From a virus, in the IMG/VR virus record IMGVR_UViG_3300043331_002603, positions 1-28,491 of that record: 28,491 bases of DNA; one strand, written 5' to 3'. Positions 116-15,554 of this stretch are shown one piece after another. Below the pieces are notes generated by a model. The model was not told the DNA's origin. It saw only the letters and a program-made list of their open reading frames with translations, and did not search any database. The translations under genes were made by a program, and so were the position numbers. Within the stretch, counting starts at the first letter, position 1. Each line of letters starts with the position of its first letter.

Positions 116-130
116 GTCTCAGGTCGGGCC
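116..130 (+). promoter_or_regulatory. Operator-like site 1 (degenerate right arm)
   Basis: GTCTCAGGTCGGGCC shares the left nine or more bases with site 2 (154-168), 38 bp away. Its right arm departs from the GAGAC consensus, so it is the weaker member of the pair. It overlaps the left stem of the 127-150 hairpin. Confidence 0.4.
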
Positions 131-150
131 GTCGCGTCCACGCGACGGCC
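127..150. terminator. Perfect 10-bp GC hairpin
   Basis: Positions 127-136 and 141-150 are perfect reverse complements (arm GGCCGTCGCG) with a four-base loop, TCCA. There is no T-tract on either side. It lies downstream of the leftward gene ending at 242, so it may be a non-canonical terminator for that transcript, or DNA structure between the two flanking palindromes. Confidence 0.4.
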
Positions 151-153
151 GCT

Positions 154-168
154 GTCTCAGGTCGAGAC
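154..168 (+). promoter_or_regulatory. Operator-like site 2
   Basis: GTCTCAGGTCGAGAC has 5-bp perfect arms (GTCTC and GAGAC) around a 5-base centre. It matches the palindrome found at 1153-1167 in 13 of 15 positions and lies in the spacer upstream of the leftward gene that starts at 60. Confidence 0.55.
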
Positions 169-241
169 GCGCCCTGGCGAGCCAGGACGCGCCCCCTCGC
201 GTCGGTCGGTCGGGTCGACCGGCCGGCGCGGCGGGGCGCGG

Positions 242-535
242 TCAGCGGCCTTCGCGCTCGCGGCGGTTCTTGGCGACGATGTCGTGCGCTCTCCGCCTGC
301 GCGCCAGGCGTTCTTCCTCGGGGTCGCCGATCGCGTCGAGCACGCGCGACAGGAAGTCGAGGGTCTCGCTCGCGCCAGCGCGCTCGTCGGGCCCGAAGCA
401 CGTGGTGAAGGCGTCGTTGAGGTTGTGGAACACGACGTCGAGCCCCTGGCGCAGGGCGAGCCGGTCGTCGTCGTCGAGCTCGCGGAACTGGGCCTCGAGG
501 CAGGTGAGGTTCACGGTGAAGGTGCGGTCTCGCAT
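242..535 (-). CDS. Hypothetical 97-aa acidic/basic protein
   Basis: This leftward gene starts at ATG 535, 12 bases after the stop of the gene at 548-658, with AAGGA nine bases upstream, so the two are probably co-transcribed. The protein is soluble and mainly helical in character. A central acidic stretch (ELDDDDRLALRQGL, about residues 19-32) is followed by a C-terminal third rich in Arg and Glu (EEERLARRRRA and NRREREGR). There are two Cys (residues 12 and about 46) and no signal peptide or membrane segment. I do not recognise the family. Its position, leftward of the terminase genes, is where phages often keep small early or regulatory proteins. Confidence 0.7.
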   Translation of the reverse strand: MRDRTFTVNLTCLEAQFRELDDDDRLALRQGLDVVFHNLNDAFTTCFGPDERAGASETLDFLSRVLDAIGDPEEERLARRRRAHDIVAKNRREREGR

Positions 536-547
536 TGGTGTAGGTCC

Positions 548-658
548 TTACTCGTCGCACTCGCAGGTCGGTTCGGGCCGGTCGTGGTGGAACGCGATCG
601 GCGCTCCGCACTCGTGGCAGACTTCGTCGGGCTTCTCGGACACGCGGTAGTCGTTCAT
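548..658 (-). CDS. 36-aa Cys-rich mini-protein (zinc-knuckle-like)
   Basis: A short leftward gene starts at ATG 658 and ends with TAA at 548. It has an AAGGA Shine-Dalgarno six bases before the start, and no other ATG, GTG or TTG occurs upstream in this frame before a stop. The peptide contains CHEC at residues 14-17 and CEC near the C-terminus (about 32-34), plus two adjacent His between them, a plausible Zn-binding set. Function is unknown; such mini-proteins are often metal-dependent adaptors or host-takeover factors. It precedes the 97-aa gene by 12 bases. The good ribosome binding site and Cys spacing support a real gene despite its size. Confidence 0.6.
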   Translation of the reverse strand: MNDYRVSEKPDEVCHECGAPIAFHHDRPEPTCECDE

Positions 659-711
659 GGTGAGTCCTTCATCGGCCGTCGGCCGGTGGAAGTTTACGGT
701 GAAACAGAGTA

Positions 712-726
712 GTCTCAGAGCGCGAC
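712..726 (+). promoter_or_regulatory. Operator-like site 3
   Basis: GTCTCAGAGCGCGAC matches the left arm exactly and GCGAC on the right, as in site 4. It overlaps the last codons and stop of the 28-aa leftward peptide and lies about 55 bp upstream of the start of the 36-aa gene, so it could control that gene. Confidence 0.45.
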
Positions 727-801
727 GATCGCCGAGAGCAGCAGACCGGCGACGACCGCGATCGAGATCAGACGGAGCGAGCGGAGCGTTGTGTGCGTCA
801 T
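715..801 (-). CDS. 28-aa single-pass membrane peptide, probably leaderless
   Basis: The leftward frame starting at ATG 801 encodes MTHTTLRSLR followed by an uninterrupted hydrophobic segment (about residues 11-28) ending at TGA 715. A positively charged N-terminus before one hydrophobic helix is the layout of a small inner-membrane peptide. There is no Shine-Dalgarno. A TAAGCT hexamer ends seven bases before the ATG, the geometry expected for a leaderless transcript and similar to the promoters before the genes at 1190 and 15561. Possible roles include superinfection exclusion or lysis control, but none can be assigned. The frame stays open upstream to 1137, but that part looks like GC-driven read-through. 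Confidence 0.45.
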   Translation of the reverse strand: MTHTTLRSLRLISIAVVAGLLLSAIVAL

Positions 802-808
802 GTTATAG

Positions 809-814
809 AGCTTA
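809..814 (-). promoter_or_regulatory. Putative -10 box of the leftward transcript
   Basis: On the leftward strand TAAGCT fits TANNNT and ends seven bases before the ATG at 801, predicting transcription starting at or next to the start codon. Operator-like site 4 lies about 40 bp upstream. It lacks the extended TG seen in the rightward promoters. Confidence 0.35.
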
Positions 815-854
815 TCGGCAGCGGCGAGCGAGAAGCTAAATGCAAAAAGCGGTA

Positions 855-869
855 GTCGCAAGCTGAGAC
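855..869 (-). promoter_or_regulatory. Operator-like site 4
   Basis: Read on the leftward strand this is GTCTCAGCTTGCGAC, identical to site 5 (1153-1167) except for one base. The two sites point in opposite directions across the divergent region, each about 30-40 bp upstream of a start codon-proximal -10 box. Confidence 0.6.
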
Positions 870-896
870 CGTGATTCGGAGTTGTAGCACCGGGCC

Positions 897-944
897 GGGG
901 CTCGTTCTCGCGCGCCGGCGTCCCCCGGACGAGCCCCAGCTTTT
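897..944 (+). terminator. Large inverted repeat with following T-tract
   Basis: Positions 897-905 (GGGGCTCGT) and 929-937 (ACGAGCCCC) form a 9-bp stem around a 23-base GC-rich loop, followed by AGC and TTTT at 941-944. It resembles a rightward intrinsic terminator but with a long loop. No rightward gene precedes it, so it might instead be part of a packaging site or a leader structure. Confidence 0.35.
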
Positions 945-1005
945 CCAACTCATGGAAGCTCCCTCCGGCGGCCGGCGCCCCGGCGTCCCCGCGCCGGAGC
1001 CCCCA

Positions 1006-1061
1006 GGCCCCTGCCCGGCGTCCCCTCGCCCTCGGCCCCTGCCCGGCGTCCCCTCGCCCCC
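1006..1061. repeat. 28-bp tandem direct repeat, two copies
   Basis: Units 1006-1033 and 1034-1061 are identical at 27 of 28 positions. Each contains CGGCGTCCCC, which also occurs near 917 and 981, so the decamer appears four times in about 140 bp. Located 130-185 bp upstream of terS, the repeats could be terminase-binding elements; they may also be simple GC-rich slippage. Confidence 0.6.
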
Positions 1062-1152
1062 AGCCGCGGCCCATGGTGACCCTCCCTCCCAGCGCGCAGC
1101 GCCGCCCGCAGCGCGAGGTCGCCCCCTCGCTGCCCACAAGGTAGGGATTCCT

Positions 1153-1167
1153 GTCTCAGCTTGAGAC
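1153..1167 (+). promoter_or_regulatory. Operator-like site 5, at the terS promoter
   Basis: GTCTCAGCTTGAGAC is a near-perfect palindrome ending nine bases before the -10 box of the terS promoter, covering roughly -37 to -23. A protein bound here would contact or replace the -35 region and so could repress or activate packaging and head gene expression. Confidence 0.65.
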
Positions 1168-1170
1168 CCC

Positions 1171-1182
1171 ACGTGGTACAGT
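1171..1182 (+). promoter_or_regulatory. Extended -10 promoter before terS, leaderless
   Basis: ACGTGGTACAGT has TG one base before TACAGT, a classic extended -10. The box ends seven bases before the GTG at 1190, so transcription would begin at the start codon. The same 12-mer recurs with one change at 3406-3417 and 15543-15554. Confidence 0.65.
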
Positions 1183-1189
1183 TGCTCCT

Positions 1190-1669
1190 GTGGGACGGAT
1201 CGACGAGCCCTGGAGGGGAGCGTACCTGGAGGCCCTGCGGCTCACCGGCAGCCCGGCCGCCGCTCGCCGCGACTCCGGCGCCCCGCGCGTCGACGTCGAC
1301 CGCCTCCTGGCCGACGACCAGTCCTTCGCCGACGACGTCGCCGAGGCCGTCGCCCTGTTCCAGTACGAGCAGGTCGAGCAGCCCATCCAGGAGCGCGCGA
1401 CCAAGGGCGTCAAGCGGGCCGTGTACTGGAACGGCGAGGTCGTGGGCTGGGAGACCCAGTACAGCGACAAGCTGCTCCTCGCCATGGCCAAGGCGCACGT
1501 CGACCGCTACCGCGACAGGCTCGAGGTCAAGGGCCTGCCCGCCGCCGCGCCGCTGGACCTCGACGGGCTGAGCCCCGAGGGCCAGGAGCGCCTGCGCGAG
1601 CTGCTGCTGGGCGAGCTGGCGCGGCGCGAGGAGCGCGAGCCGGACGCGCCCGGGTCTGGGGCCGGGTGA
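1190..1669 (+). CDS. terS: Terminase small subunit (probable)
   Basis: This gene encodes 159 residues and directly precedes the packaging and portal genes, the usual place of the small terminase subunit, which recognises phage DNA and hands it to the large subunit. The N-terminal part (WRGAYLEALRLTGSPAAARR, about residues 8-27) reads as the helix-turn-helix common in these proteins. A middle part follows (YWNGEVVGWETQYSDKLL, near residues 83-100), which is typical of small terminases and phage HTH proteins. The C-terminus is charged and helical, suited to oligomerisation. The GTG start has no Shine-Dalgarno but lies seven bases after a -10 box, implying leaderless translation. The family call rests on context plus these motifs. 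Confidence 0.75.
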   Translation: MGRIDEPWRGAYLEALRLTGSPAAARRDSGAPRVDVDRLLADDQSFADDVAEAVALFQYEQVEQPIQERATKGVKRAVYWNGEVVGWETQYSDKLLLAMAKAHVDRYRDRLEVKGLPAAAPLDLDGLSPEGQERLRELLLGELARREEREPDAPGSGAG

Positions 1670-1676
1670 GGCGGCC

Positions 1677-1892
1677 TTGCGCGAGCGGGTCACGCCCACG
1701 AGCCGGAGGAGCCCGCGCTGCAGGTGGTGCGGGATGCCCTGCGCCTCCCCGACCCTCTGGTCGCGCAGCCACGACCTCCGGGACCAGGTGCTCGCGGGCG
1801 CCTACTGCGACTCGGAGTGCCTGCTGATGGCGCACGAGGCCTTCAAGCGCTTCGCCGGGCGCCCCCAGCTGCCGGTGGGTCAGGGCGGGTGA
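1677..1892 (+). CDS. 71-aa Cys-rich small protein
   Basis: A small gene lies between the two terminase genes, starting at TTG 1677 (GAGG five bases upstream) eight bases after terS. The protein contains CRWCGMPC (about residues 15-22) and YCDSEC (about 43-48), a spacing resembling FCS/treble-clef zinc fingers. The stop overlaps the GTG of the large terminase in a GTGA junction, so the two are translationally coupled. Small zinc-finger or HNH-like genes are common around terminases; no HNH catalytic triad is visible here, so an endonuclease role is not supported. An in-frame ATG lies within the Cys motif and would destroy it, which favours the TTG. Confidence 0.6.
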   Translation: MRERVTPTSRRSPRCRWCGMPCASPTLWSRSHDLRDQVLAGAYCDSECLLMAHEAFKRFAGRPQLPVGQGG

Positions 1893-3406
1893 GCGCGGAG
1901 CGCTCCCTGAGCCTGCGGGGCGCCGACGAGCTGCTCCGGAGGGCGATGAGGGACCCCCGGGCCGCCCTGGACCAGCTCGACCGCGCCAGGTGCGCGCGCA
2001 GCCTGTACGCCTTCTGCGAGCGCTTCTGGCCGGTGGTCGAGCCGGGCAGGGAGATGGTGCGCGGGCGCGCGATGCGCGTCGTGTGCGAGCACCTCGAGGC
2101 GGTGTCCGACGGCCGCATCAAGCGCCTCCTGATCAACGTGCCTCCAGGCACCTCGAAGTCGCTCGTCACGTGCGTCTTCTGGCCGGCGTGGGCGTGGGGC
2201 CCGGGCGGTCGGCCGGACAGGCGCTTCATCAGCTGGTCCTACGCCGAGGCGCTCGCGCTGCGCGACAACCGCAAGTGCCGCCTCGTGATGCAGTCGGACG
2301 ACTACCGCCGCCTCTGGCCCGACGTCAGGCTGGTCGCCGACCAGAACGAGAAGTCCTACTTCGAGAACGTCGCGCGCGGGTTCCGCCAGGCGTGCGGCAT
2401 CACGGGCGCCACCACCGGCTACCGCGGCGACCTGCTGGTGGTCGACGACCCGCACAACGTGAAGCAGGCCGAGTCGGAGGCGGTGCGCGAGGCCGCGCTG
2501 CACTGGTTCAGCGAGGTGCTGCCGTCGCGCACGAACGGCGACGACGCGGCCATCGTCGTCATCATGCAGCGCGTCCACCAGAGCGACGTCTCCGGGCACG
2601 TGCTCGAGAAGCTGCCGAGCTGGGACGTGCTGTGCCTCCCGATGGAGCACGAGCCCGACCACCCGACGCCCAGCCGGACGAGGCTGGGGTTCGTCGACTG
2701 GCGGTCCGAGCCCGGCGAGCTGCTGTGGCCCGAGCTGTTCCCGTCGTCGCGCGTCGAGGAGCTCAAGGAGCAGCTCCGCTCGTGGGGCGGCGAGTACGCC
2801 GTCGCGGGCCAGCTGCAGCAGCGCCCCGTGCCGCGCGAGGGCGGCATGTTCCACGCGGACGACTTCACGGTCGTCGACGAGCCGGCCCCGGCGTCGGCGC
2901 GCCGCGTGCGCGGGTGGGACCTCGCGGGCACGCGCGACAAGCGGGCCGCGGCGACGGTGGGCGTGCTCATGGCGCTGCACGAGGGGACGGTCTACGTCGA
3001 GGACGTGGTCCGCATCCAGGGCCGCCCCGCCGAGGTCGAGGCGCTGCTGCGCTCCACCGCCGAGCGCGACGGGCGGCAGGTCGAGCAGTCCATCCCGCAG
3101 GACCCCGGCCAGGCGGGCAAGTACCAGAAGGGCGCGCTGGCCAAGCTCCTGCACGGCTACCCCTGCCGGTTCACGCCGGAGACGGGCAGCAAGGAGGACC
3201 GCGCGCGGCCGCTGGCGGCGCAGGCGGAGGCGGGCAACGTGCGCCTCGTGCGCGCGCCCTGGAACGGGGCGTACGTCTCCGAGATGGCGATGTTCCCCGG
3301 CGGGAGCTGGCGCGACCAGGTGGACGCCTCCTCGCGCGCCTACTCCGCGCTCGTGGTGAAGAAGACCAGGCTGGTCGGCGGTGCGCCCACCCTGTACGTG
3401 GGCTGA
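1889..3406 (+). CDS. terL: Terminase large subunit (ATPase-nuclease)
   Basis: The 505-residue product is the packaging motor that translocates and cuts concatemeric DNA. The N-terminal ATPase has a Walker A-type loop, VPPGTSKS (residues 84-91), and a Walker B, LLVVDD, with Asp186-Asp187 as the acidic pair. The C-terminal RNase H-like nuclease shows GWDLAGTRDK with Asp344, a second acidic position in PQDPGQ (Asp405) and a third in WRDQVDA (Asp476/Asp479). Length is normal for the family. The start is GTG at 1889 in a GTGA overlap with the preceding small gene; longer upstream starts would overlap that gene completely. The promoter for the next gene overlaps its stop codon. Confidence 0.93.
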   Translation: MSAERSLSLRGADELLRRAMRDPRAALDQLDRARCARSLYAFCERFWPVVEPGREMVRGRAMRVVCEHLEAVSDGRIKRLLINVPPGTSKSLVTCVFWPAWAWGPGGRPDRRFISWSYAEALALRDNRKCRLVMQSDDYRRLWPDVRLVADQNEKSYFENVARGFRQACGITGATTGYRGDLLVVDDPHNVKQAESEAVREAALHWFSEVLPSRTNGDDAAIVVIMQRVHQSDVSGHVLEKLPSWDVLCLPMEHEPDHPTPSRTRLGFVDWRSEPGELLWPELFPSSRVEELKEQLRSWGGEYAVAGQLQQRPVPREGGMFHADDFTVVDEPAPASARRVRGWDLAGTRDKRAAATVGVLMALHEGTVYVEDVVRIQGRPAEVEALLRSTAERDGRQVEQSIPQDPGQAGKYQKGALAKLLHGYPCRFTPETGSKEDRARPLAAQAEAGNVRLVRAPWNGAYVSEMAMFPGGSWRDQVDASSRAYSALVVKKTRLVGGAPTLYVG

Positions 3407-3417
3407 CGTGGTACAAT
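3406..3417 (+). promoter_or_regulatory. Extended -10 promoter overlapping the terL stop
   Basis: ACGTGGTACAAT is identical over all 12 bases to the promoter at 15543-15554. Transcription would begin near 3424, giving a short leader of about 15 bases before ATG 3440. The preceding bases fit the GTCTCA palindrome poorly, so this copy may be free of that control. Confidence 0.6.
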
Positions 3418-3439
3418 CTTAGCTCGAGGCTCGAAGAAG

Positions 3440-3640
3440 ATGACGGCGACCTACTGCGCGGGGTGCGGGGGCTGGTTGAGCGGGGCGGTCTGGGCGAGCC
3501 CGCCGCCCGCGGGGTGCCAGTGCCCTCCGGGCTGGCCGCGCCAGGCGTGGACGCTCGACTGGCCCGACCGGGCGCCTGAGCCGGCCGCGCGCCCCGACCC
3601 CGCGCCTCACGACCGCGAGCTGGAGCGCGCCTTCCCGTGA
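3440..3640 (+). CDS. 66-aa Cys-rich small protein with its own promoter
   Basis: The gene starts at ATG 3440, preceded by a purine-rich GAAGAAG, and ends in a GTGA overlap with the portal gene. Residues 6-9 are CAGC and a second pair, CQC, occurs near residues 26-28, separated by a Trp/Pro-rich stretch. This is a plausible zinc ribbon or a redox/metal-binding mini-protein. The last 25 residues are Pro/Ala/Arg-rich and probably disordered. It is the second Cys-rich mini-protein in the packaging region. I do not recognise the family. Its dedicated promoter, shared with portal, suggests portal and head genes can be expressed apart from terminase. Confidence 0.6.
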   Translation: MTATYCAGCGGWLSGAVWASPPPAGCQCPPGWPRQAWTLDWPDRAPEPAARPDPAPHDRELERAFP

Positions 3641-5049
3641 GCGACCTGACCCCCATGACCGACGTCGGCGTCCCCAAGCGCCGCGTCCCGCCCTCGGCGC
3701 GCGGCGGCGTGCCGGGCGTCGCGGTCATCGGCGGCTACCCGCAGACCAACGAGCTCAGCTCCGAGCTGAGCGGGCGCGCGCGGTACCGCACGTTCCGGGA
3801 GGTGCTGCTCAACACCAGCATCGTCGCGGCGTCGGTGCGGTCGTACCTCAACCTGCTCGGCAACGCCGGGTGGACGGTCGAGCCCTCGAAGAAGCGCGGC
3901 GGCAAGCGCGTCGCCGAGCTGGTCGAGGACGCGCTGTTCAAGGACATGGAGACGCCCTGGCACCGCGTGGTGCGTCGGGCCGCCATGTACCGGTTCTACG
4001 GGTTCTCCGTCCAGGAGTGGACCGCGAAGCGCGGCAAGCGCGGCCGGGTGACGTACGCCGACGTCGAGTCCCGCTCCCAGAACACCATCGTCAAGTGGGA
4101 CGTCGACGTCAAGACCGGCGAGGTGCTGGGCGTCGTCCAGGAGTCGCCGTGGAACGGGGTCGAGCTCTACGTCCCGCGCACGAAGCTGCTGTACCTCGTC
4201 GACGACTCGCTCAGCGACAGCCCGGAGGGCGTCGGGCTGTTCCGCCAGGTCGTCGGACCGGCGCGCCGGCTGAAGGTCCTCGAGGACCTCGAGTGCTACG
4301 GCTACGAGTCCGACCTCCGCGGCATCCCCATCGGCCGCGCGCCGATCAGCGAGCTGCGCGCTCAGGGCTGGACGGAGGACGAGATCAAGGCCGAGATCGC
4401 CGGGATCCGTGACTTCCTCGAGAACCACCGGCGCACGCCGCAGCTCTCGCTGCTCCTCGACTCGATCACGTACGAGAGCGAGGACGAGTCGGCGGCGGCG
4501 TCCGCGGCCAAGCAGTACGACGTGAGCCTCCTGCAGGCCTCGACGACCGGGCACGAGCACGTGGCCAACGCCATCGAGCGGCTCAACCGCGAGATCGCGC
4601 GCAGCCTCGGGGCCGAGAGCCTGCTCACGGGCGAGAACGGGTCTGGGTCGCTCGCCATGGCGCGGGACAAGAGCCAGACGTTCGCGCTGACCGTCGCCGC
4701 GAGCCTCCAGGAGATGACGCAGGTGTTCCAGCGCGACCTGGTCACGCCGCTCATGCTGATGAACGGCGTCGACGAGAGCCTGCGCCCCGAGCTCAAGCCG
4801 GACGCGATCCAGCACCGGTCGGTCATCGAGATCACCGAGGCGCTGCGCGACCTCGCCCTGGCCGGCGCGGCCCTCGACCCGGCCGACCCCGTCGTCGACA
4901 GGCTGCGTAGCCTCATGGGGCTCCCGCGCTCGGTGGTGGTGCGCGAGAAGCCCGCGGCCGACGCGACCCTCGACGGCACCCCAAGGAACCAGCTGACCCC
5001 GAACAGCCGCCCGCCCCAGGGCGCGGGGGACGGCGCAGACGACGACTAG
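3637..5049 (+). CDS. Portal protein (DUF935 / Mu gp29-like)
   Basis: The 470-residue protein forms the dodecameric ring at the capsid vertex through which DNA enters and to which the neck attaches. It shows features of the DUF935-type portals: an N-terminal wing with RYRTFREVLLNTSIVAASVR (about 47-66), a central AMYRFYGFSVQEW segment, and a long helical stem with NAIERLNREIARSLG followed by TGENGSGSLAMARDK. The C-terminus is Pro/Gly-rich and acidic and likely disordered. GTG 3637 overlaps the previous stop. The family is typical of Mu-like heads, but here no Mu-type minor head protein (SPP1 gp7-like) follows; adornment genes come next instead. Confidence 0.87.
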   Translation: MSDLTPMTDVGVPKRRVPPSARGGVPGVAVIGGYPQTNELSSELSGRARYRTFREVLLNTSIVAASVRSYLNLLGNAGWTVEPSKKRGGKRVAELVEDALFKDMETPWHRVVRRAAMYRFYGFSVQEWTAKRGKRGRVTYADVESRSQNTIVKWDVDVKTGEVLGVVQESPWNGVELYVPRTKLLYLVDDSLSDSPEGVGLFRQVVGPARRLKVLEDLECYGYESDLRGIPIGRAPISELRAQGWTEDEIKAEIAGIRDFLENHRRTPQLSLLLDSITYESEDESAAASAAKQYDVSLLQASTTGHEHVANAIERLNREIARSLGAESLLTGENGSGSLAMARDKSQTFALTVAASLQEMTQVFQRDLVTPLMLMNGVDESLRPELKPDAIQHRSVIEITEALRDLALAGAALDPADPVVDRLRSLMGLPRSVVVREKPAADATLDGTPRNQLTPNSRPPQGAGDGADDD

Positions 5050-5073
5050 CAAGGCAGCAACGGAGAACAGGCA

Positions 5074-5502
5074 GTGCAGATCCGCTTCCCAGACAGCATC
5101 TACGGTGACCTCGGCAACAACAACGTCGACCTCGGCGCCGACACGTTCAAGGCCATGCTCGTCACCTCGGCCTACACGTTCGACTTCGCGCACGACCGGC
5201 GCGACGACGTGACCAACGAGGTGGTTGGCACGGGCTACACGGCGGGCGGCGTGACGCTGACCGGCGTCACGTACGTCATCGACGGGACCAACCGGCGGTA
5301 CAAGTTCGACTTCAACGACCCCAGCTGGGCCAGCTCGACCATCACGGCGCGCGGCTGCTGGGTCTACAAGAGCCGCGGCGGCGCGGCGTCGGCGGACGAG
5401 CTGGTGGCGTTCATCGACTTCGAGCAAGACGAGTCCTCGAGCAACACCGAGTTCAAGATCCAGCTCAACTCGGTCGGCCTGTTCGTGATGCGCGCGGGCT
5501 AG
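5074..5502 (+). CDS. Virion-associated beta-rich protein, function unknown
   Basis: The 142-residue product begins at GTG 5074 with GGAG upstream. It is mainly polar beta-type sequence with landmarks AMLVTSAYTFDFAHD (about 27-41), GTGYTAGGVTLTGVTY (about 52-67) and STITARGCWVY (about 89-99). I know these landmarks from unnamed phage structural proteins encoded near portal or capsid genes. It has no membrane segment or signal peptide. It is the first of five compact genes between portal and prohead protease. A capsid or tail decoration role is inferred from family resemblance and context, with no enzymatic motif seen. Confidence 0.6.
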   Translation: MQIRFPDSIYGDLGNNNVDLGADTFKAMLVTSAYTFDFAHDRRDDVTNEVVGTGYTAGGVTLTGVTYVIDGTNRRYKFDFNDPSWASSTITARGCWVYKSRGGAASADELVAFIDFEQDESSSNTEFKIQLNSVGLFVMRAG

Positions 5503-5506
5503 ACCG

Positions 5507-6270: not shown

Positions 6271-6277
6271 GGCGCTG

Positions 6278-8599
6278 ATGCTCTGGGCCGGGAGCAACGA
6301 CGCGCTGCGCACCACCACCCCGGTGTCCTACCAGCAGGACTACACCGTCTGCTGCTGGGTGCGGGCCACGGAGAACAGCGGGACCTACGCCGCCTGGGCC
6401 CTGGACGACGACTCTGGGGACAACTACCTCCACCTCTTCTACGACGTGGGGACCGGGTTCTGGTACTGGGGCGCGGACGGTGACGCGTTCGACCCAGCGG
6501 TGGGGGCGGTCACCTTCAGGAACGACGAGCGGTGGCAGTTCATCGCGCTGGTGAGGACCAACGGCTCGTTCATCCCTGACACCCACAGGTTCAGGAGCTA
6601 CTGCCGGCTCGACGACAAGGACGACACCTGGGACTTCGCGCTCGACTACGACGACAAGTCGGGGCCGAGCGACGAGTTCGAGTACCTGCGAGTCGGGGCC
6701 GGAGGCGGAGGCGCCGCCCCGTACGTCGGGAACCTCATGCACCTGAAGGTGTGGGGCGCAGCGCTGACGTCCGACGAGCTGCTTCGAGAGAGCCAGAGGG
6801 GCGCCCCGTACCGCACGGACGACCTCATGGGCTGGTGGCCCCTGGAGAGCACCGAGGGGTCGACGACCACGTACCAGATCCGCGGCCAGGGCGACGGGAC
6901 CACGTTCGACAACTACCAGGGGAGCCACCCGACACAGGACCAGACGTCCCCGCCTGTGTGGTGGGACGACGAGCCTGCTCCGCAGCTCCGCCTGAGGTAC
7001 GGCCGGGGCGGGACGGTGTCGCTGCCGCTGGCCTCCGTCGAGCTGGCAGGGGTGTGCCCCGACCTGCACCGCGCCCCGATCGTCACGCTGCCGCTCGGCG
7101 CGCTCGAGCTGGCGGGCCTCGCTCCTTCTGTGCGCCAGGCTCCGCGGCTGCGCGTCCAGCTGGGCGCCCTCGAGGTCGAGGGCCTGTGCCCAGCCGTGGC
7201 CGTCGGCCCGAAGGTCCTCGCTCCGCTCGGCGCGCTCGAGGTCGCGGCGCTCGCGCCGAGCGTTGCCACTGGCCCGGTGGTCTCCGCCCCGCTCGGGGCG
7301 GTCGAGCTCGAGGGCCTGTGCCCCGACGTGACCGTCGGGCCGGAGCTGCTCGCCCCGCTCGGGCACGTCGAGCTGGAGGGCCTGCCGCCCAGCGTCGGGT
7401 CGGGCCCGGTGGTGACCGCCTCCCTCGGCGCCGTCGAGCTGGCCGGCGTGGCGCCGACGGCCCCGCGGGCCCCGGTGGTCGTCGCCCCGCTGGGCGAGGT
7501 CGAGCTCGAGGGGCTGCCGCCCAGCGTCGGCTCCGGCCACGTGGTCCACGCGCCGCTCGGTGAGGTGGAGGTCGAGGGGCTGTGCCCCGCGGTGCCGCGG
7601 CCGACCGTCGCGCGCGCCCCGCTCGGCGAGGTCGAGCTGCAGGGCATCTGCCCGGTCGTCCTCGTCGACGCAGACAAGGCGTGCGTGGTCCACGCCCCGC
7701 TCGGGCACGTCGAGCTGGAGGCCCTGTGCCCCGTCGTCCGGCACGGCCAGCTGGTGTCCGCGCCCCTGGGCGAGGTGGAGGTCGCCGGGGTCGCTCCGGT
7801 GGTCGCGCGCTCCCCGGTCATCGTCGCCCAGCTGGCGTCCCTCGAGCTGGAGGGGCTCCCGCCCAGCGTGGCTTCGGGACACGTGGTCCGCGCGCCGCTC
7901 GGCGAGGTCGAGCTGCAGGGGCTCTGCCCCGAGGTCCTCACCGGCCAGGACGAGGCTGCGACCGTCGTCCACGCTCCGCTCGGCGAGGTCGAGCTGGAGG
8001 GGCTCGAGCCTCAGGTCGAGGTCGGCACGCTGCTGGTCGCGGGCCTGGGCGCCCTCGAGCTGGTCGGCCTGTCCCCGGTCGTCCTGGTCGGCCCGGGGGT
8101 CATCGCCGTCCTGGGCGAGGTCGAGCTGCGAGGGTTCGAGCCGACGGTGGTCACCTCCACCACGATCCTGCCCCCGCTCGGGGCCCTCGAGATCGCTGGC
8201 CTGAGCGCGTCGGTGAGGACGGGGCGCGTGGTGCGCGCCGGACTCGGCGCCATCGAGCTCGAGGGGCTGTGCCCCGAGGTGCGCTTCGGGCGCACCGTGT
8301 CGCCCGGACTCGGGGAGCTGGTCGTCGAGGGCCTGTCCCCGGTCGTCGTCCGCGGACCGTGCCTCCGCGCGCCCCTCGGCGTCGTCGAGCTGCGCGAGCT
8401 GGCGCCCAAGGTGCTCAGCCTGACCAGCGTGATGCCCGCGGAGGGCTTCGTGGTGACGCTCGAGGCCGACGACCGCTCCGCGGCTCTCGAGCCCGACGTG
8501 GCGGTGGCGCTAGAATCGGAAGAGAGGGCCGTCTCCCTCGAGCCCGACCTGTCGGCGGGGCTCGACGACGGCCTGGACGTGACCCTGAGCGAGGACTGA
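6278..8599 (+). CDS. LamG-like protein with 21 tandem 22-residue repeats
   Basis: This 773-residue protein has three parts. Residues 1 to about 235 look like a concanavalin/LamG-type jelly roll: an N-terminal strand with TVCCWVRA, a central DNYLHLFYDVG, then LMHLKVWGAALTSDELL and DLMGWWPLE, the usual closing motif of such domains. Residues 246-716 are 21 consecutive repeats, 19 of exactly 22 residues and two of 26 and 27, with consensus VV.APLG.VELEGLCP.V..G. Residues 717-773 are acidic and include short LEPD repeats. The repeats suggest a beta-solenoid or fibre shaft of regular rise, with a glycan-binding head. The ribosome site is GAGG before ATG 6278. It is probably a virion fibre or capsid adornment; the placement next to portal rather than tail genes is unusual. 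Confidence 0.75.
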   Translation: MLWAGSNDALRTTTPVSYQQDYTVCCWVRATENSGTYAAWALDDDSGDNYLHLFYDVGTGFWYWGADGDAFDPAVGAVTFRNDERWQFIALVRTNGSFIPDTHRFRSYCRLDDKDDTWDFALDYDDKSGPSDEFEYLRVGAGGGGAAPYVGNLMHLKVWGAALTSDELLRESQRGAPYRTDDLMGWWPLESTEGSTTTYQIRGQGDGTTFDNYQGSHPTQDQTSPPVWWDDEPAPQLRLRYGRGGTVSLPLASVELAGVCPDLHRAPIVTLPLGALELAGLAPSVRQAPRLRVQLGALEVEGLCPAVAVGPKVLAPLGALEVAALAPSVATGPVVSAPLGAVELEGLCPDVTVGPELLAPLGHVELEGLPPSVGSGPVVTASLGAVELAGVAPTAPRAPVVVAPLGEVELEGLPPSVGSGHVVHAPLGEVEVEGLCPAVPRPTVARAPLGEVELQGICPVVLVDADKACVVHAPLGHVELEALCPVVRHGQLVSAPLGEVEVAGVAPVVARSPVIVAQLASLELEGLPPSVASGHVVRAPLGEVELQGLCPEVLTGQDEAATVVHAPLGEVELEGLEPQVEVGTLLVAGLGALELVGLSPVVLVGPGVIAVLGEVELRGFEPTVVTSTTILPPLGALEIAGLSASVRTGRVVRAGLGAIELEGLCPEVRFGRTVSPGLGELVVEGLSPVVVRGPCLRAPLGVVELRELAPKVLSLTSVMPAEGFVVTLEADDRSAALEPDVAVALESEERAVSLEPDLSAGLDDGLDVTLSED
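7013..8425 (+). repeat. 66-bp period coding repeat array (21 units)
   Basis: The array is 1413 bp, equal to 19 units of 66 bp plus units of 78 and 81 bp (the 10th and 14th). The best conserved core encodes APLGEVELEGL. Position 15 of the unit is Cys in eight units (1, 3, 5, 9, 10, 11, 14 and 19). Units have diverged at the DNA level, which argues for an old expansion kept by selection. Recombination between units could change fibre length. Confidence 0.85.
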
Positions 8600-8600
8600 C

Positions 8601-8951: not shown

Positions 8952-8994
8952 CCTCGATGGGAGCGACGGGTGACGCGCGTCCGCAGAAAAGGTC

Positions 8995-9009
8995 GTCTCA
9001 ACGTGAGAC
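8995..9009 (+). promoter_or_regulatory. Operator-like site 6, at an internal promoter
   Basis: GTCTCAACGTGAGAC has perfect 6-bp arms and a three-base centre, the most symmetric copy in the window. It ends eight bases before the -10 box at 9018-9023, the same arrangement as at the terS promoter. It lies in an 86-base spacer, one of the few true gaps in the rightward block. Confidence 0.7.
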
Positions 9010-9011
9010 TC

Positions 9012-9023
9012 TCGTGGTAAGAT
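9012..9023 (+). promoter_or_regulatory. Extended -10 promoter for the head operon
   Basis: TCGTGGTAAGAT carries TG plus TAAGAT. Transcription would start near 9030, leaving a leader of about eight bases before ATG 9038. It likely drives the connector, protease, scaffold and capsid genes. Confidence 0.6.
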
Positions 9024-9037
9024 CTCAGCTGTAGGCG

Positions 9038-9598
9038 ATGGCGTTCACGATCGTAGTCGGGACCAACAGCTACGTGACCCGCGCTGAGGCGGACGCGAGG
9101 CTGGAGCAGGGGCTGGGGCAGGCGCTCTGGTTCGCCCTGTCGGGCGTCCAGCGCGACCAGCACCTGGTGGAGGCGTTCCAGCTGATCGAGCGCCAGCGGT
9201 ACCGCGGGACCCGCACCGGAGGCGCCGCGCAGCTGACCCAGTTCCCGAGGGACGGGGTCACGAGCTGCGACGGGTACGACGAGAGCGGGGTGACCCCGGC
9301 CCCGGTCGCGGTGAAGGAGGCGCAGGTCCTGCTCGCCCTGGAGCTGGCGCGCGACCCTGGCGTCGCCACCGCGGCCGGGGTGGGGAGCAACGTCCGCCGG
9401 GCGAAGGCCGGCAGCGCCGAGGTGGAGTTCTTCGCCTCGGCCCGCAACTCCGCCGGCCTCGACGCCGAGCGCTTCCCGACCCCCGTGCAGGAGCTGCTCC
9501 GCTGCTACCTGGCGAGGGGCGGCGCGGCCACGTCGGAGGCCTTCGGGACCGGCGCCGAGTACCAGTGCCCCGACTTCGGGGTGGGCGGTAACGGCTAG
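9038..9598 (+). CDS. Head-tail connector, DnaT-like family (probable)
   Basis: The 186-residue protein opens with FTIVVGTNSYVTRAEADARL (residues 3-22), the hallmark start of the phage family annotated as DnaT-like ssDNA-binding protein. Members are encoded near head genes and are often read as connector or adaptor proteins. A helical middle (LIERQRYRGTR) and an FPRDGV motif also fit. The DnaT label comes from distant similarity, and a replication role is not supported by this context. ATG 9038 sits eight bases after the predicted transcription start with AGGCG just before it. Confidence 0.65.
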   Translation: MAFTIVVGTNSYVTRAEADARLEQGLGQALWFALSGVQRDQHLVEAFQLIERQRYRGTRTGGAAQLTQFPRDGVTSCDGYDESGVTPAPVAVKEAQVLLALELARDPGVATAAGVGSNVRRAKAGSAEVEFFASARNSAGLDAERFPTPVQELLRCYLARGGAATSEAFGTGAEYQCPDFGVGGNG

Positions 9599-9599
9599 C

Positions 9600-9971
9600 G
9601 TGGGATTACGCATCCTGGGAACCGACATCGCCGGCATCGTGGCCCGCGCCCTCGGCGGCGGGGCGCTTAGCGGCACCCTCCACTCCGTCTCGCGCGGGAC
9701 CCGCTCCGCCGCCGCGCTGGCCGGCGGCACGAACCCGACCTACTCGGACCACGCGTTCAAGGGGTTCTCCGAGTCGCTGTCCCGCTCCCGGATGCCCGAG
9801 AGCGTGGTGGCCAAGGCGAGGCGCGCGGTGCTCGTGCTCGGTGACACCGTCTCGCCAGCCGTCGCGCCGAAGTCCGGCGACCAGCTCACCTTCGAGGGCG
9901 AGCGGGGGCACGTGCTCACCGTCGAGCGCGACCCGGACGCCGCGGCCTACCTGTGCCTCCTGAGGGAGTGA
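9600..9971 (+). CDS. Head-closure-like protein (probable)
   Basis: The 123-residue product starts at GTG 9600, one base after the previous stop and without a clear Shine-Dalgarno, so it is probably coupled. The C-terminal half is beta-rich: RRAVLVLGDTVSPAVAPKSGD, then TFEGERGHVLTVERDPDAAAYLC, the pattern of phage proteins that follow DnaT-like connectors and have been read as neck or head-closure components. The N-terminal half is Gly/Ala/Ser-rich. Assignment is from context plus this pattern and is tentative. Confidence 0.5.
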   Translation: MGLRILGTDIAGIVARALGGGALSGTLHSVSRGTRSAAALAGGTNPTYSDHAFKGFSESLSRSRMPESVVAKARRAVLVLGDTVSPAVAPKSGDQLTFEGERGHVLTVERDPDAAAYLCLLRE

Positions 9972-10381
9972 TGACCAAGGTGATGAAGAGGTTCCAGCTG
10001 CTGAAGGTCGACGACGACCTCGGGCTGGTGTTCGGGTTCGCGGTGGTCTGCTCCGAGGACGGAGAGCCCTACGTCGACCTCCAGGGCGAGCTTGTCACGC
10101 CCCAGGCGATGATGAAGGCCGCCGTCGACTTCGCGCGCGGAGCGCGCCGCGGCCGCGAGATGCACGAGACCGACGACGGCGACGTGGTCTTCCTGTTCCC
10201 GCTGACGGCGGAGGTCGCGAAGGCCCTGGACATCGAGACGCGTCGCACTGGCCTGCTGACGGCTCTCGCGCCGTCGAACCCGGAGACGCTCGCCAAGATC
10301 AAGGCCGGCGAGTACACCGGGCTCTCCATCGGCGGGGAGTACGTGACCGTCGAGACGGTCGAGATGGAGGAGGCGTCGTGA
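9971..10381 (+). CDS. Prohead protease, XkdF-like
   Basis: The 136-residue protein is related to XkdF of the Bacillus PBSX element, a putative serine protease of head maturation. Landmarks are LVFGFAVVCSEDGEPYVDLQ (residues 19-38), EMH with His65, FLFPLTAEVAKALDIE (74-89), and TGLSIGGEY with Ser119. His65 and Ser119 are the likely catalytic residues, by analogy with S78-type proteases. The ATG overlaps the previous stop by one base (TGATG), and the end overlaps the scaffold gene (GTGA). The expected role is cleavage of scaffold and possibly capsid N-termini during maturation. Confidence 0.8.
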   Translation: MTKVMKRFQLLKVDDDLGLVFGFAVVCSEDGEPYVDLQGELVTPQAMMKAAVDFARGARRGREMHETDDGDVVFLFPLTAEVAKALDIETRRTGLLTALAPSNPETLAKIKAGEYTGLSIGGEYVTVETVEMEEAS

Positions 10382-11703: not shown

Positions 11704-11706
11704 GCC

Positions 11707-12081
11707 GTGGCCAAGCACGAAGCCATCGAAGTCATCAGCGTCGAGGCGTCCGCGGACCTCTCGGCGCACCAGTTCAAGTTCATGGCGCTGTCCTCGGGGC
11801 AGCTGGCCCTGCAGACGAGCTCCTCGGCGGCCAACGTCGGGGTGCTCCAGGACAAGCCGGCGGCCGCGGGCCGCGTCGGCTCGGTCGCGATCAGCGGCCG
11901 TGTCAAGGTCGTCTCGGGCGCGGCGGTCTCCGTCGGAGCGCTCGTGATGTCCAGCACCACGGGGAAGGCGATCACGGCCACCGGCTCGGGCAACCGCGTC
12001 GAGGGCCTCGCCCTGACGGCGTCCGGCGCCGACGGCGAGCTGATCGAGATCCTCAAGTTCGGCCCCTACCTGCTCGCGTGA
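11707..12081 (+). CDS. Capsid decoration protein, DUF2190-like
   Basis: The 124-residue product starts at GTG 11707 with GGAG upstream, between scaffold and major capsid genes. It is rich in Ala, Gly, Ser and Val with regular beta strands (VGSVAISGRVKVVSGAAVSV, about 58-77, and GALVMSSTTGKAITAT), typical of the DUF2190 type of trimeric capsid cement proteins. It lacks Cys. Such proteins bind the capsid at three-fold positions after expansion and stabilise packed DNA. Length and place in the order protease-scaffold-decoration-capsid fit well. Confidence 0.75.
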   Translation: MAKHEAIEVISVEASADLSAHQFKFMALSSGQLALQTSSSAANVGVLQDKPAAAGRVGSVAISGRVKVVSGAAVSVGALVMSSTTGKAITATGSGNRVEGLALTASGADGELIEILKFGPYLLA

Positions 12082-12097
12082 GCCAAGGAGCACCACC

Positions 12098-13108
12098 ATG
12101 AGCGCCAACAAGTTCATCCGCAAGCAGCAGCCGACCCAGTCCGACGTCCACGTCGACCGTCCGCTGACCAACATCTCCATCGCCTTCCTGCAGAAGGCGG
12201 AGATGTTCATCGCCGACCGCGTGTTCCCCAACATCCCGGTCTCCAAGCAGTCCGACAAGTACTTCACCTTCCCGCGGGGCATGTTCAACCGCGACGAGAT
12301 GGCGAAGCGCGCGGACTGCACCGAGGCCGCGGTGGTCGGGTACACCGTCTCGACGGACAGCTACTACGCCGACGTGTGGGCGCTCGCCCACCAGATCGGC
12401 GACCAGCGGCGCGCCAACTCGGACTCGCCGCTCCAGCCCGACCGGGAGGCCGTCGAGCTCCTGTCGCACAAGGCCATGATCCGGCGCGAGCGCGCCTGGG
12501 CCGCGGACTACTTCGTCACGGGCGTCTGGACGAACGAGCGCGCGGGCGTGGCTTCCGGCCCGACCGGCTCGCAGTTCCTGCGGTGGGACGTCTCGGGCTC
12601 CGACCCCGTCGGGATCGTCGAGGCGGCCAAGACCACGATGCTCAACTCGACCGGGTTCGAGCCCAACACGCTCGTCCTGAGCCGCGCCGTCTGGGCCGCC
12701 CTGCGGAACCACGCGGACCTCAAGGACCGGGTGAAGTACACGGGCAGCAACCAGGTGCCCGGCGTGGTCAACCTCCAGGCTCTCGCCCAGGTCATGGACG
12801 TGGAGCGGATCCTGGTGGCCAAGGCCATCCACAACAGCGCCGTCGAGGGCGCCGCGGACTCGCACGGCGCGATCATGGGCAAGAACGCCCTGCTCGCCTA
12901 CGTGGCCCCGAGCCCCGGCCTCATGACCCCGTCGGCGGGCTACACGTTCTCGTGGACGGGCCTGCTCGGCTCTGGCGCCCAGGGCCAGCGCATCACCCGG
13001 CTGCGCGACGACAAGAAGAAGTGCGACCACGTCGAGATCGAGATGGCCTTCGACCAGAAGCTCGTCTCGGCCGACCTCGGCTTCTTCTTCCTGGACGCGG
13101 TCTCCTGA
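12098..13108 (+). CDS. Major capsid protein
   Basis: The 336-residue product has the best ribosome site in the window (AAGGAG before ATG 12098), as expected for the most abundant protein. The order after scaffold and decoration genes, the N-terminal arm (about 1-30) followed by ADRVFPNIPVSKQSDKYFTF (about 39-58), the RRERAWAADYFVTGVW segment and the P-domain-like NTLVLSRAVWAALRNH region (about 189-204) fit an HK97-fold capsid protein. No long N-terminal delta domain is present, which agrees with a separate scaffold. A strong hairpin follows 8 bases after the stop. Confidence 0.87.
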   Translation: MSANKFIRKQQPTQSDVHVDRPLTNISIAFLQKAEMFIADRVFPNIPVSKQSDKYFTFPRGMFNRDEMAKRADCTEAAVVGYTVSTDSYYADVWALAHQIGDQRRANSDSPLQPDREAVELLSHKAMIRRERAWAADYFVTGVWTNERAGVASGPTGSQFLRWDVSGSDPVGIVEAAKTTMLNSTGFEPNTLVLSRAVWAALRNHADLKDRVKYTGSNQVPGVVNLQALAQVMDVERILVAKAIHNSAVEGAADSHGAIMGKNALLAYVAPSPGLMTPSAGYTFSWTGLLGSGAQGQRITRLRDDKKKCDHVEIEMAFDQKLVSADLGFFFLDAVS

Positions 13109-13116
13109 CCGTGAAC

Positions 13117-13141
13117 CGCCCGCCGCTCTGAGCGGCGGGCG
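13117..13141 (+). terminator. Strong GC hairpin after the capsid gene
   Basis: Positions 13117-13127 and 13131-13141 form a perfect 11-bp stem (arm CGCCCGCCGCT) with a CTG loop. No U-tract follows. Its place after the capsid stop and 10 bases before the next start suggests partial termination or 3'-end protection, which would leave capsid mRNA in excess over tail mRNA. Confidence 0.65.
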
Positions 13142-13151
13142 CCTCCCCGCC

Positions 13152-13577
13152 ATGGCGACCGAGGCGCAGCTGACGATCACGAAGCTGAGGAACGCGACCG
13201 GCCGGTCTGTCCGGAGGCTCGCGCTCACGACGCTCGCCCGTCTGATCGTCGACCCTCGCCAGGGAGGCACCCCGGTCGACACCAGGCACGCCCAGACCAA
13301 CTGGGTGCTGTCGGTCGGGAACCCGTACACGCGCGTGGACGGCACCAAGGAGGCGATCTCCGAGGGAGCCCAGCGCGCAGGCGCGGCGAAGGTCGAGCGT
13401 TGGCGGCTCGGCCAGCCGCAGATCTTCCTCACCAACAACGTCCCTTACGTCTCGCTCCTCAACCAGGGGTCCTCGAAGCAGGCCCCGGCGGGGTTCGTGG
13501 AGGCGGCGGTCCAGGCGGCCCTCGACAAGGAGCGCGTCATCCGCGACCTCGAGCGCGCCGTCGGTGGCGGACGGTGA
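13152..13577 (+). CDS. HK97 gp10-like neck/tail-completion protein (probable)
   Basis: The 141-residue protein has a basic N-terminal half and the motif NNVPYVSLLNQGSSKQAPAG (about 96-115), which matches the region (VPYA..LE.G....APAGM) of HK97 gp10-like and related tail-completion proteins. It ends in a helix, VEAAVQAALDKERVIRDLERA. The ATG has no evident Shine-Dalgarno and begins 10 bases after the hairpin. The end is a GTGA overlap with the next gene. The order (capsid, this gene, tail terminator, tube) supports a neck function. Confidence 0.65.
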   Translation: MATEAQLTITKLRNATGRSVRRLALTTLARLIVDPRQGGTPVDTRHAQTNWVLSVGNPYTRVDGTKEAISEGAQRAGAAKVERWRLGQPQIFLTNNVPYVSLLNQGSSKQAPAGFVEAAVQAALDKERVIRDLERAVGGGR

Positions 13578-13990
13578 CCAGCCTCGCCGAGGCCCAGCAG
13601 GCGTGCTACGTCCGCTTCCTGGCGCAGTGGTCTGGCACGGCGGCCGGCAACGTGGTCTTCGAGAACGAGGGGCACGCGGCGGTGGACGCTCAGGAGCTGC
13701 CGTGGGTGAGGGTGTCTGTGCAGGAGACCGGAGGGGGCCAGGAGAGCCTGGGGCCGACCGGGTCCCGAAAGTACCGCCGCCGAGCGCGGGTGGCGGTGCA
13801 GGTGTTCACCCCCGACGACTCGGGGGCGCGCCAGGGCGCGCTGCTCGCCGAGCAGGCGCGCGCCATCTTCGAGGGGTCGGCATTCAGCGACCTCGACTTC
13901 TACGACGCGACCGTGACGCCACAGGGACTGGACGAGAAGTGGCTGGTCACCGTCATGCTCGCGACCTTCGAGTTCTACGAGACCAAGTGA
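13574..13990 (+). CDS. Tail terminator protein (probable, gpU/DUF4128-like)
   Basis: The 138-residue product uses GTG 13574 in a GTGA overlap. It has a helix with ARFLAQW-like sequence at the N-terminus (ACYVRFLAQWSG, about 11-22), the motif ELPWVRVSVQETGGGQ (about 38-53), then beta strands RARVAVQVFTP and a helix ALLAEQARAIFEG, a pattern typical of phage tail terminators that cap the tail tube. It ends with LDEKWLVTVMLATFEFYE. Position just upstream of the tube gene agrees. Confidence 0.68.
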   Translation: MTSLAEAQQACYVRFLAQWSGTAAGNVVFENEGHAAVDAQELPWVRVSVQETGGGQESLGPTGSRKYRRRARVAVQVFTPDDSGARQGALLAEQARAIFEGSAFSDLDFYDATVTPQGLDEKWLVTVMLATFEFYETK

Positions 13991-13997
13991 GGCCCCA

Positions 13998-15521
13998 ATG
14001 GGACGCGTACTGACCAACAAGACCACGACCGCCATCGCCGCTGAGGCCAGCCTCGGCGTCCTGCCCGGCTCCCCGGTGTGGTACCAGCTCGAGCCGAACG
14101 ACATCCCCTCCTACGGCGGGGAGAACTCCCAGATCGCGCGCGAGCCGATCAGCCAGTTCCGCCAGCGGCGGAAGGGGATCGTCTCCGACCGCGACAGCGC
14201 CGCGGAGATCGAGCACGACCTGACCCTCGAGCTGGCCAACATCGGGCTGCTCGAGGCGTTCGTGTTCGCCGTCACCAAGTGGCCGCTCAACCAGGCGCCG
14301 GTGCGCGCTGGCGGCTCGCCCTACGGCCAGAACCTGGCGGTGACGTCGTCCACGGTTATCGGGCACGACGCCCTGTCGGCGGCGATCCCGGTCAACACCC
14401 TGGTCTACCTGCGCGGGTTCTCGAACGCCGCGAACAACGGCCTGAAGCTGGTCACGGCGTCGACGACCACGACCACGACCATCGGCGCGGCCGGCCTCGT
14501 CGTGGAGACCCCCTCCGGGCCCTCCGGGGCGCGGATGGAGATCGCCGGGCGGCGCGCCGCGACGAGCGACCTCGAGCTCACCGTCACCGGCACCACGGGC
14601 ACGCTCGAGAGCACGGTCCTGGACTTCACCACGCTGGGCATCCGCGTGGGCCAGACCATCCACATCGGCGGCCTCACCTCGGCCAACTGGTTCGGCGCGA
14701 CGAACCGGGGCTACGTCCGCGTTCTGAGCGTGGCGGCGAACCTCATCACGTTCGACAAGGCCGACAGCACCCTGGTCACCGACGCGGGCACCGGCGACAC
14801 GGTGGACCTCCTGTACGGCGGGTTCATCCGCAACGTGGCGACCACCCACGCCGACTACGTCGAGCGGAGCTACCAGGCCGAGGTGGCGTACCCGAACCTG
14901 CAGGTCCCCGGACCGGGCGACGAGTACGAGTACTCGAAGGGCAACCTCGCCAACGAGCTGGCCCTCGCCCTGCCCCTGACGGACAAGGCCACGGTCACCA
15001 TCGGGTTCGTCGGGACGGACACCGAGGACCCGACGACCTCCCGCAAGACGAACGCAGCCACCCCCGTGCTGCCGGTGGCCACCGCCGCCTTGAGCACCAC
15101 CTCGGACATCGCCCGCCTGCGCATCGAGCGGGTCGACGGGACGGGGCTGACGTCGTGCTTCACGGACCTCAACCTGACGCTCAACAACCAGGTGAGCCCG
15201 GAGAAGTGCCTGGGCACGCTGGGCGCCGTGTTCATGAACTTCGGGAACTTCCTGGTCGACATGGAGGCGCAGCTGGTCTTCACCGACAGCCGGGTCGTCG
15301 CGGCCATCCGGGCCAACACCACCCTGACCATGGACCTGGTCCTGCGCAACAGCGACGGGGCGCTGGCCATCGACCTCCCGGCGATGACCCTGGGCGACGG
15401 CAGCCGCGAGTTCCCGCTGAACGAGTCGGTCAAGGTGAACCTGTCCGGGCAGGCCTTCGGGGACCCGGCGCTGGGCTACAGCCTGGGCCTGAGCACGTTC
15501 GCTGCGGTGCCGCTGGCCTGA
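13998..15521 (+). CDS. Major tail tube protein
   Basis: The 507-residue protein starts at ATG 13998 with GAGG upstream. The N-terminal half carries TTAIAAEASLGVLPGSPVWY (about 10-29) and a beta-rich body with a helix EHDLTLELANIGLLEAFVF, and the C-terminal part has TSCFTDLNLTLNNQVSPEKC, ending GDPALGYSLGLSTFAAVPL. The polar, Thr/Gly-rich composition, absence of membrane segments and position between tail terminator and the frameshifted chaperones identify it as the tube subunit. It is longer than the roughly 150-350 residues common for the family, so an additional surface domain is likely, probably in the 130-260 region. Confidence 0.75.
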   Translation: MGRVLTNKTTTAIAAEASLGVLPGSPVWYQLEPNDIPSYGGENSQIAREPISQFRQRRKGIVSDRDSAAEIEHDLTLELANIGLLEAFVFAVTKWPLNQAPVRAGGSPYGQNLAVTSSTVIGHDALSAAIPVNTLVYLRGFSNAANNGLKLVTASTTTTTTIGAAGLVVETPSGPSGARMEIAGRRAATSDLELTVTGTTGTLESTVLDFTTLGIRVGQTIHIGGLTSANWFGATNRGYVRVLSVAANLITFDKADSTLVTDAGTGDTVDLLYGGFIRNVATTHADYVERSYQAEVAYPNLQVPGPGDEYEYSKGNLANELALALPLTDKATVTIGFVGTDTEDPTTSRKTNAATPVLPVATAALSTTSDIARLRIERVDGTGLTSCFTDLNLTLNNQVSPEKCLGTLGAVFMNFGNFLVDMEAQLVFTDSRVVAAIRANTTLTMDLVLRNSDGALAIDLPAMTLGDGSREFPLNESVKVNLSGQAFGDPALGYSLGLSTFAAVPLA

Positions 15522-15536
15522 TCCCTCGCCCCGGCC

Positions 15537-15551
15537 GTCTCAACGTGGTAC
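15537..15551 (+). promoter_or_regulatory. Operator-like site 7, overlapping a -10 box
   Basis: GTCTCAACGTGGTAC matches site 6 at 13 of 15 bases. Its right arm is merged with the extended -10 of the chaperone promoter, so bound regulator would directly block RNA polymerase here, whereas at sites 5 and 6 it lies further upstream. Confidence 0.6.
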
Positions 15552-15554
15552 AAT
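15543..15554 (+). promoter_or_regulatory. Extended -10 promoter for the tail operon, leaderless
   Basis: ACGTGGTACAAT ends six bases before ATG 15561, so the transcript would begin at or within a base of the start codon. The intervening AGGGAC is too close to the ATG to act as an efficient Shine-Dalgarno. Confidence 0.65.

Follow-up and report, generated by a model that had tools for sequence, protein, structure and literature searches.

A dispersed GTCTCA-N3-TGAGAC dyad with operator-like placement in a high-G+C siphovirus record

Layout of the stretch

The DNA described is IMG/VR virus record IMGVR_UViG_3300043331_002603, analysed over its whole length of 28,491 bases (the window). G+C content 71%; the record is possibly a fragment. 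It contains dispersed copies of a 15-bp dyad, GTCTCA-N3-TGAGAC, which are the subject of this report and are probably sites of transcriptional control. The rightward block opens with the terminase small subunit gene, terS (1190..1669, plus strand; phrog_4044, 5e-16), followed by the terminase large subunit gene, terL (1889..3406, plus strand; phrog_38, 2e-82), and by portal, adaptor, capsid, tail and tape-measure genes. The major capsid gene (12098..13108, plus strand; phrog_1005, 1e-90) served as a query for relatives. Small leftward genes lie to the left of the block.

The dyad set

With at most two mismatches the dyad occurs in the window at 154, 712, 855, 1153, 8995 and 15537. It is perfect at 1153 and 8995, and has one mismatch at 154 and 855, two at 712 and 15537, and three at 116. 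The first-pass annotation had listed seven copies of the palindrome. Its coordinates are all right; two of the copies, however, are perfect, four are imperfect and the one at 116 is a half-site. Best core is GTCTC-N5-GAGAC, perfect in three sites (154, 1153, 8995). Positions flanking the 15 bp carry less than 0.5 bit of information each.

All six sites with at most two mismatches lie within non-coding gaps or at their margins, and these gaps comprise 3.5% of the window; the placement at control points and outside structural genes, as first described, is thus upheld. Shuffling of the gaps (first-order Markov, n = 2000) gave a mean of 0.037 sites and a maximum of 3, and none of the 2000 shuffles reached six. 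Shuffling of the whole window gave a mean of 1.46 and a maximum of 5, with 0 of 150 reaching the observed count. In a scan of every 6-base arm with gaps of 0–11, all of these allowed for, GTCTCA-N3-TGAGAC was the most over-represented dyad in the window, an extreme reached by 0 of 60 shuffles. The dispersed operator-like dyads of this phage are a real set. At the three-mismatch level the count over the whole window is that of chance (16 found, 13.6 expected), and site 116 alone is therefore not significant.

Compensatory change at mismatched arm positions is absent from the two-mismatch sites here, and was found in 1 of 41 cases in virus contig G717 and 0 of 13 in G716. An RNA hairpin was rejected on this ground, the P1 dyad (below) lying in addition upstream of its own transcript start; since mismatches do not preserve pairing, the element is a DNA dyad.

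Predicted rightward promoters

Each of four rightward gaps contains one extended -10 element (TGGTAnnnT). These share the core CGTGGTA(A/C)(A/G)(A/G)T at 1172, 3407, 9013 and 15544 (predicted promoters P1–P4; all plus strand); four occurrences of CGTGGTAnnnT were found against 0.017 expected. At P1 a perfect operator-like dyad (1153..1167, plus strand; centre about -30) lies upstream of terS, followed by the core ACGTGG-TACAGT (1171..1182) and the terS GTG start at 1190. The P2 core, ACGTGG-TACAAT (3406..3417), follows terL and is without a dyad. At P3 a second perfect dyad (8995..9009, plus strand; centre about -28) precedes the core TCGTGG-TAAGAT (9012..9023) and the ATG, at 9038, of a head-tail adaptor gene. 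At P4 a degenerate dyad with two mismatches (15537..15551, plus strand; centre about -17) overlaps the -10 of the core ACGTGG-TACAAT (15543..15554), with an ATG at 15561. Three predicted rightward core promoters, P1, P3 and P4, thus carry the dyad, as had been proposed.

The start codon lies 7 (P1) and 6 (P4) bases past the -10, a spacing consistent with leaderless messages. CGTCTCAACGTG is common to P3 and P4, and P4 looks like P3 with 11 bp missing between two copies of CGTG. With +1 taken 7 bases after the -10, the dyad centres at predicted promoters, leftward ones included, are at about -36, -35, -30, -28 and -17.

Leftward sites

Four sites are on the minus strand. The half-site at 116..130, read leftward as GGCCCGACCTGAGAC, lies between leftward genes, right after a 10-bp hairpin and with no promoter near. 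The site at 154..168, with perfect 5-bp arms (GTCTC-N5-GAGAC), is likewise between leftward genes. CGACCTGAGAC, present at 116, recurs exactly at 154; both copies immediately follow a stable stem-loop in the leftward transcript. The two stem-loops (127..195, ends approximate; minus strand) are strong (z = -3.4) and terminator-like, without a U run. Site 116 is retained as a candidate because of one feature, the repetition of its CGACCTGAGAC context at 154. No TA dinucleotide occurs in 60–241; with no -10 element possible there, neither 116 nor 154 is a promoter operator.

The two remaining leftward sites are situated on predicted promoters. The dyad at 712..726 (minus strand, two mismatches; centre about -35) covers the -35 of promoter PL712 (CTGAGA-16-TAAACT), with its predicted -10 TAAACT at 691..696 (minus strand), ahead of a 36-amino-acid open reading frame starting at 658. 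This site also shares bases with the stop codon of what may be a leftward open reading frame of 28 codons. At 855..869 (minus strand, one mismatch; centre about -36) the right arm, TTGCGA, forms the -35 of predicted promoter PL855 (TTGCGA-17-TAGCTT), with a putative -10 TAGCTT at 833..838 (minus strand) and an alternative, TAAGCT, at 814–809.

Recurrence in other viruses

Viral contigs were searched for the dyad with a downstream -10, giving 27 and 44 loci. Three or more copies (at most one mismatch) were present at 8 of the 44 dyad loci against 0 of 54 control loci with the dyad reversed in the same context. Loci L182/L196 and L185/L204 represent the same or near-identical regions, and about six of the eight multi-copy loci are independent. 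At least five further virus contigs, from unrelated viruses, have the dyad in many copies. The controlled count supports reuse of the one dyad across unrelated phages. These cases came to light through the dyad search itself, and for any single contig the recurrence may be a coincidence between independently evolved operators.

Contig G713 (53 kb, 48% G+C) carries nine dyads, all of them perfect, and no degenerate copy. The nine are at 26.7–32.5 kb, where a leftward early operon lies, and most occupy gene leaders, immediately ahead of the ribosome site. About 100 bases before the first dyad, on its upstream side, is a TTGACA-17-TATTAT promoter; a terminase small-subunit gene, at 32.7 kb, is divergent from the operon. 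Contigs G717 and G716 contain 66 and 26 sites with at most two mismatches (reversed control, 3 and 6), densely packed and partly within coding sequence.

Tentatively, and against the greater probability, GTCTCA-N3-TGAGAC may be a regulatory code shared by a single regulator family across unrelated phage groups (G+C 34% to 71%). Under such a code the dyad would stand at promoters here, in gene leaders in G713 and in dense arrays over early genes in G716 and G717. If true, identifying the regulator protein would also account for scattered dyads of the cluster O type (e.g. in Corndog), and one binding experiment would open up both the regulator family and these dyads.

Each of the four multi-copy contigs (G713, G714/G715, G716, G717) has a GP88 (PF17338) gene within its dyad cluster or next to it, and two of the four have DUF932 there. 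GP88 as the dyad binder was not adopted; six named GP88 phages are without the dyad. Four consecutive leftward HTH_17 genes at 34726–35903 of G713 (locus L213) are candidate dyad binders, and so is a 184-amino-acid HTH product encoded at 31915–32469 of G713.

Related phages and bacterial genomes

At about 40–48% identity, the capsid, terminase and tail-tube proteins resemble their counterparts in Pseudomonas KPP23/RSP, Roseobacter RDJL, Shewanella S0112 and Arthrobacter Laroye-type phages. The best relatives by capsid, terminase and tail proteins among viral contigs, genomes and named phages (61% capsid, 55% partial terminase, others 35–47% identity) are without the sites. No close relative of this siphovirus was found in the collections searched. 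Among the over-represented palindromes of the relatives none is comparable. The relatives lacking the sites are distant; one bears alphaproteobacterial LexA-like boxes, and for this reason probably has another host. LexA (SOS) boxes of alphaproteobacterial or actinobacterial type (GTTC-N7-GTTC or GAAC-N4-GTTC) have no match in the window.

In G002 three GTCTC-like dyads are suggestive only; they precede GTTC-N7-GTTC boxes by 37–40 bp and overlap stop codons or other repeats. At 2780–3600 of locus L111 (from G002) a GTTC-N7-GTTC box of the alphaproteobacterial LexA-like type stands before each of three small genes located upstream of terL, in two cases within a repeated 39-bp unit. A match to the composite promoter pattern at locus L020, inside a low-G+C capsid-like gene, was set aside as chance.

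In bacteria, perfect dyads occur at 26 places in 397 Actinomycetota genomes and at 21 in 299 Pseudomonadota genomes (47 in 696), never more than two per genome. In Actinomycetota some adjoin regulator genes. At two loci (L129, L133) GAF-HTH_8 genes are the neighbours, the dyads being a pair 23 bp apart and a single site, and one perfect dyad (L140) adjoins a TetR gene that diverges from a P450 gene. Because of these neighbours, dimeric regulators are plausible owners of the dyad. At 1996–2044 of locus L130 (Actinomycetota genome G406) a longer tandem repeat includes two perfect dyads of identical sequence, 34 bp from each other.

Proposed function

The sites are interpreted, with somewhat better than even confidence, as dispersed operators that all bind the same transcription regulator. 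This protein would be a dimer encoded by the phage and would most likely act as a repressor. One regulator acting on several transcripts, as first suggested, remains the simplest reading of non-coding sites that overlap core promoters. A dimer at the five promoters (two leftward; P1, P3 and P4) would cover the region from -35 to -10 and exclude RNA polymerase, perhaps in the service of lysogeny or of timing. In class II activation the site centre is near -41.5, and MerR-type activation uses a long promoter spacer. All dyad centres are inside the polymerase footprint and none is near -41.5, which favours polymerase exclusion over class II activation; the predicted promoters are without a long spacer, which disfavours the MerR type. 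At 116 and 154, between leftward genes and after strong hairpins, the role of the bound dimer for leftward transcripts would be that of a roadblock, or the sites would be auxiliary operators. The regulator gene would lie outside the 28.5-kb fragment. Such a system would give the structural genes of a high-G+C siphovirus a compact control layout: one dyad, five promoters.

Several results weigh against repression of this kind. P2, before the portal block and of the same core family, carries no dyad, and the earlier statement that packaging, head and tail expression would be switched together was overstated. The leftward -35/-10 assignments (PL712, PL855) are weak, and a consensus scan of 1–1300 gave no sigma-70 promoter. 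No regulator gene was recognised among the window genes. Conservation in related phages, another point at issue from the outset, was not found: relatives with 52–61% capsid or about 44–55% terminase identity, themselves distant, have no matching site set. Simple promoter repression leaves unexplained the many imperfect copies inside coding sequence in G717 and G716.

The first-pass annotation left the choice between a phage and a host regulator open. Operators of a host protein (e.g. of TetR or GAF-HTH_8 type), coupling phage genes to the state of the host, are unlikely. Perfect dyads, one or two at a place, do adjoin regulator genes in some Actinomycetota (L129, L133, L140), which speaks for such a protein; yet the rarity of perfect dyads, at most two in any of the 696 genomes, disfavours host-regulon use in these two phyla, though the host's own phylum may lie outside them. 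Phages of widely differing G+C content moreover carry the dyad in many copies. A phage-encoded regulator is the preferred reading.

Activation by an early phage protein, turning on rightward late promoters that have a good extended -10 and no recognisable -35, is improbable to a similar degree. Phage late operons often depend on an activator, and P1 and P3 are without a -35 and have a perfect dyad in its place. However, P2, likewise without a -35, bears none; the dyad positions range from -36 to -17, that of P4 overlapping the -10; and 116 and 154 have no promoter.

Still less probable is that the dyads mark the genome for another dimeric protein, acting in partition, replication, packaging or genome organisation and not in transcription initiation. 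Arrays that extend into genes, 50 sites in 4.4 kb of G717 and 21 in 2.3 kb of G716, would suit such a role, and the authors of the cluster O study argued that their repeats serve something besides initiation (PMC4351075); the sites of the window, in contrast, are non-coding and on promoters. Chance combined with promoter-related similarity (TGAGAC as a -35 variant) is hardly credible: TTGCGA (855) and CTGAGA (712) can act as a -35, but the right arms at P1 and P3 are only 8–10 bp upstream of the -10 and cannot, and no gap shuffle among 2000 matched the observed count.

Comparison with known systems

To our knowledge no operator of sequence GTCTCA-N3-TGAGAC has been described, and a literature search yielded nothing phage-relevant on a GTCTCA palindrome as a promoter or repressor site. 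The arrangement, dispersed phage operators, is already known in kind; this sequence appears to be undescribed.

Operators of the Streptomyces phage phiC31 are conserved inverted repeats in intergenic DNA, some of them at promoters. The present system would be most like these in its working. Both have many dispersed dyads in intergenic DNA, some on promoters, the comparison being one of layout and not of operator sequence; as in phiC31 the repeats are near-identical and confined to intergenic DNA, all six sites being non-coding or at a gene edge. Nothing in this window corresponds to the phiC31 repressor gene or its isoforms. Genomes of phiC31 and L5 have 18–30 dispersed repressor sites each (PMC4557955).

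The first-pass annotation compared the sites with the stoperators of cluster A mycobacteriophages. Those of L5 are repressor sites that lie between genes, at a distance from promoters. Each is asymmetric, binds a monomer and has one orientation relative to transcription (PMC4557955, PMC4351075). Sites 116 and 154, between genes and away from promoters, fit this likeness best, having neither TA nor -10; the five others are on promoter-like sequence. Because the sites are symmetric, two of the three rightward ones being perfect palindromes, this is not a stoperator system.

In cluster O mycobacteriophages the 17-bp repeat TGTTCGG-N3-CCGAACA, with 34 copies in Corndog, is of a function not known (PMC4351075). 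It resembles the present dyad in its arms with a 3-bp centre and its dispersed, mostly intergenic occurrence, and TGTCTCA-CAG-TGAGACA of G713 shows an identical 7-3-7 layout. The sequences differ: the core here is GTCTC-N5-GAGAC, and TGTTCGG-N3-CCGAACA is not the repeat found. Cluster O repeats are mostly off promoters and about one third are in genes, whereas here no long gene contains any of the six sites, and five of them coincide with predicted promoters.

In mycobacteriophage BPs additional repressor sites (O6, O27, O55, O61) occur beyond the immunity region, in small gaps between genes (PMC4557955). The placement in small gaps is shared; BPs operators, in contrast to the single 15-bp dyad here, consist of two half-sites with a spacer, one a 12-bp palindrome.

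Other features of the window

The gap upstream of terS contains four copies of CGGCGTCCCC (916, 981, 1016 and 1044) within 916–1053, the last two inside a near-exact tandem unit. This repeat gap is a possible terminase recognition (pac or cos) region. The gene at 6278–8599 has an N-terminal Laminin_G_3 domain and at least 14 repeat copies within 7000–8440, spaced mostly by 66 nucleotides (22 amino acids). The gene at 9953–10381 is labelled DNA methyltransferase by PHROG and XkdF-type phage serine protease by Pfam (PF14550); the protease label is favoured because the gene precedes the capsid gene. The open reading frame at 27214–28260 (minus strand), without a Pfam or NCBIfam match, contains NPPCSRFS, which resembles motif IV of cytosine-5 DNA methyltransferases.

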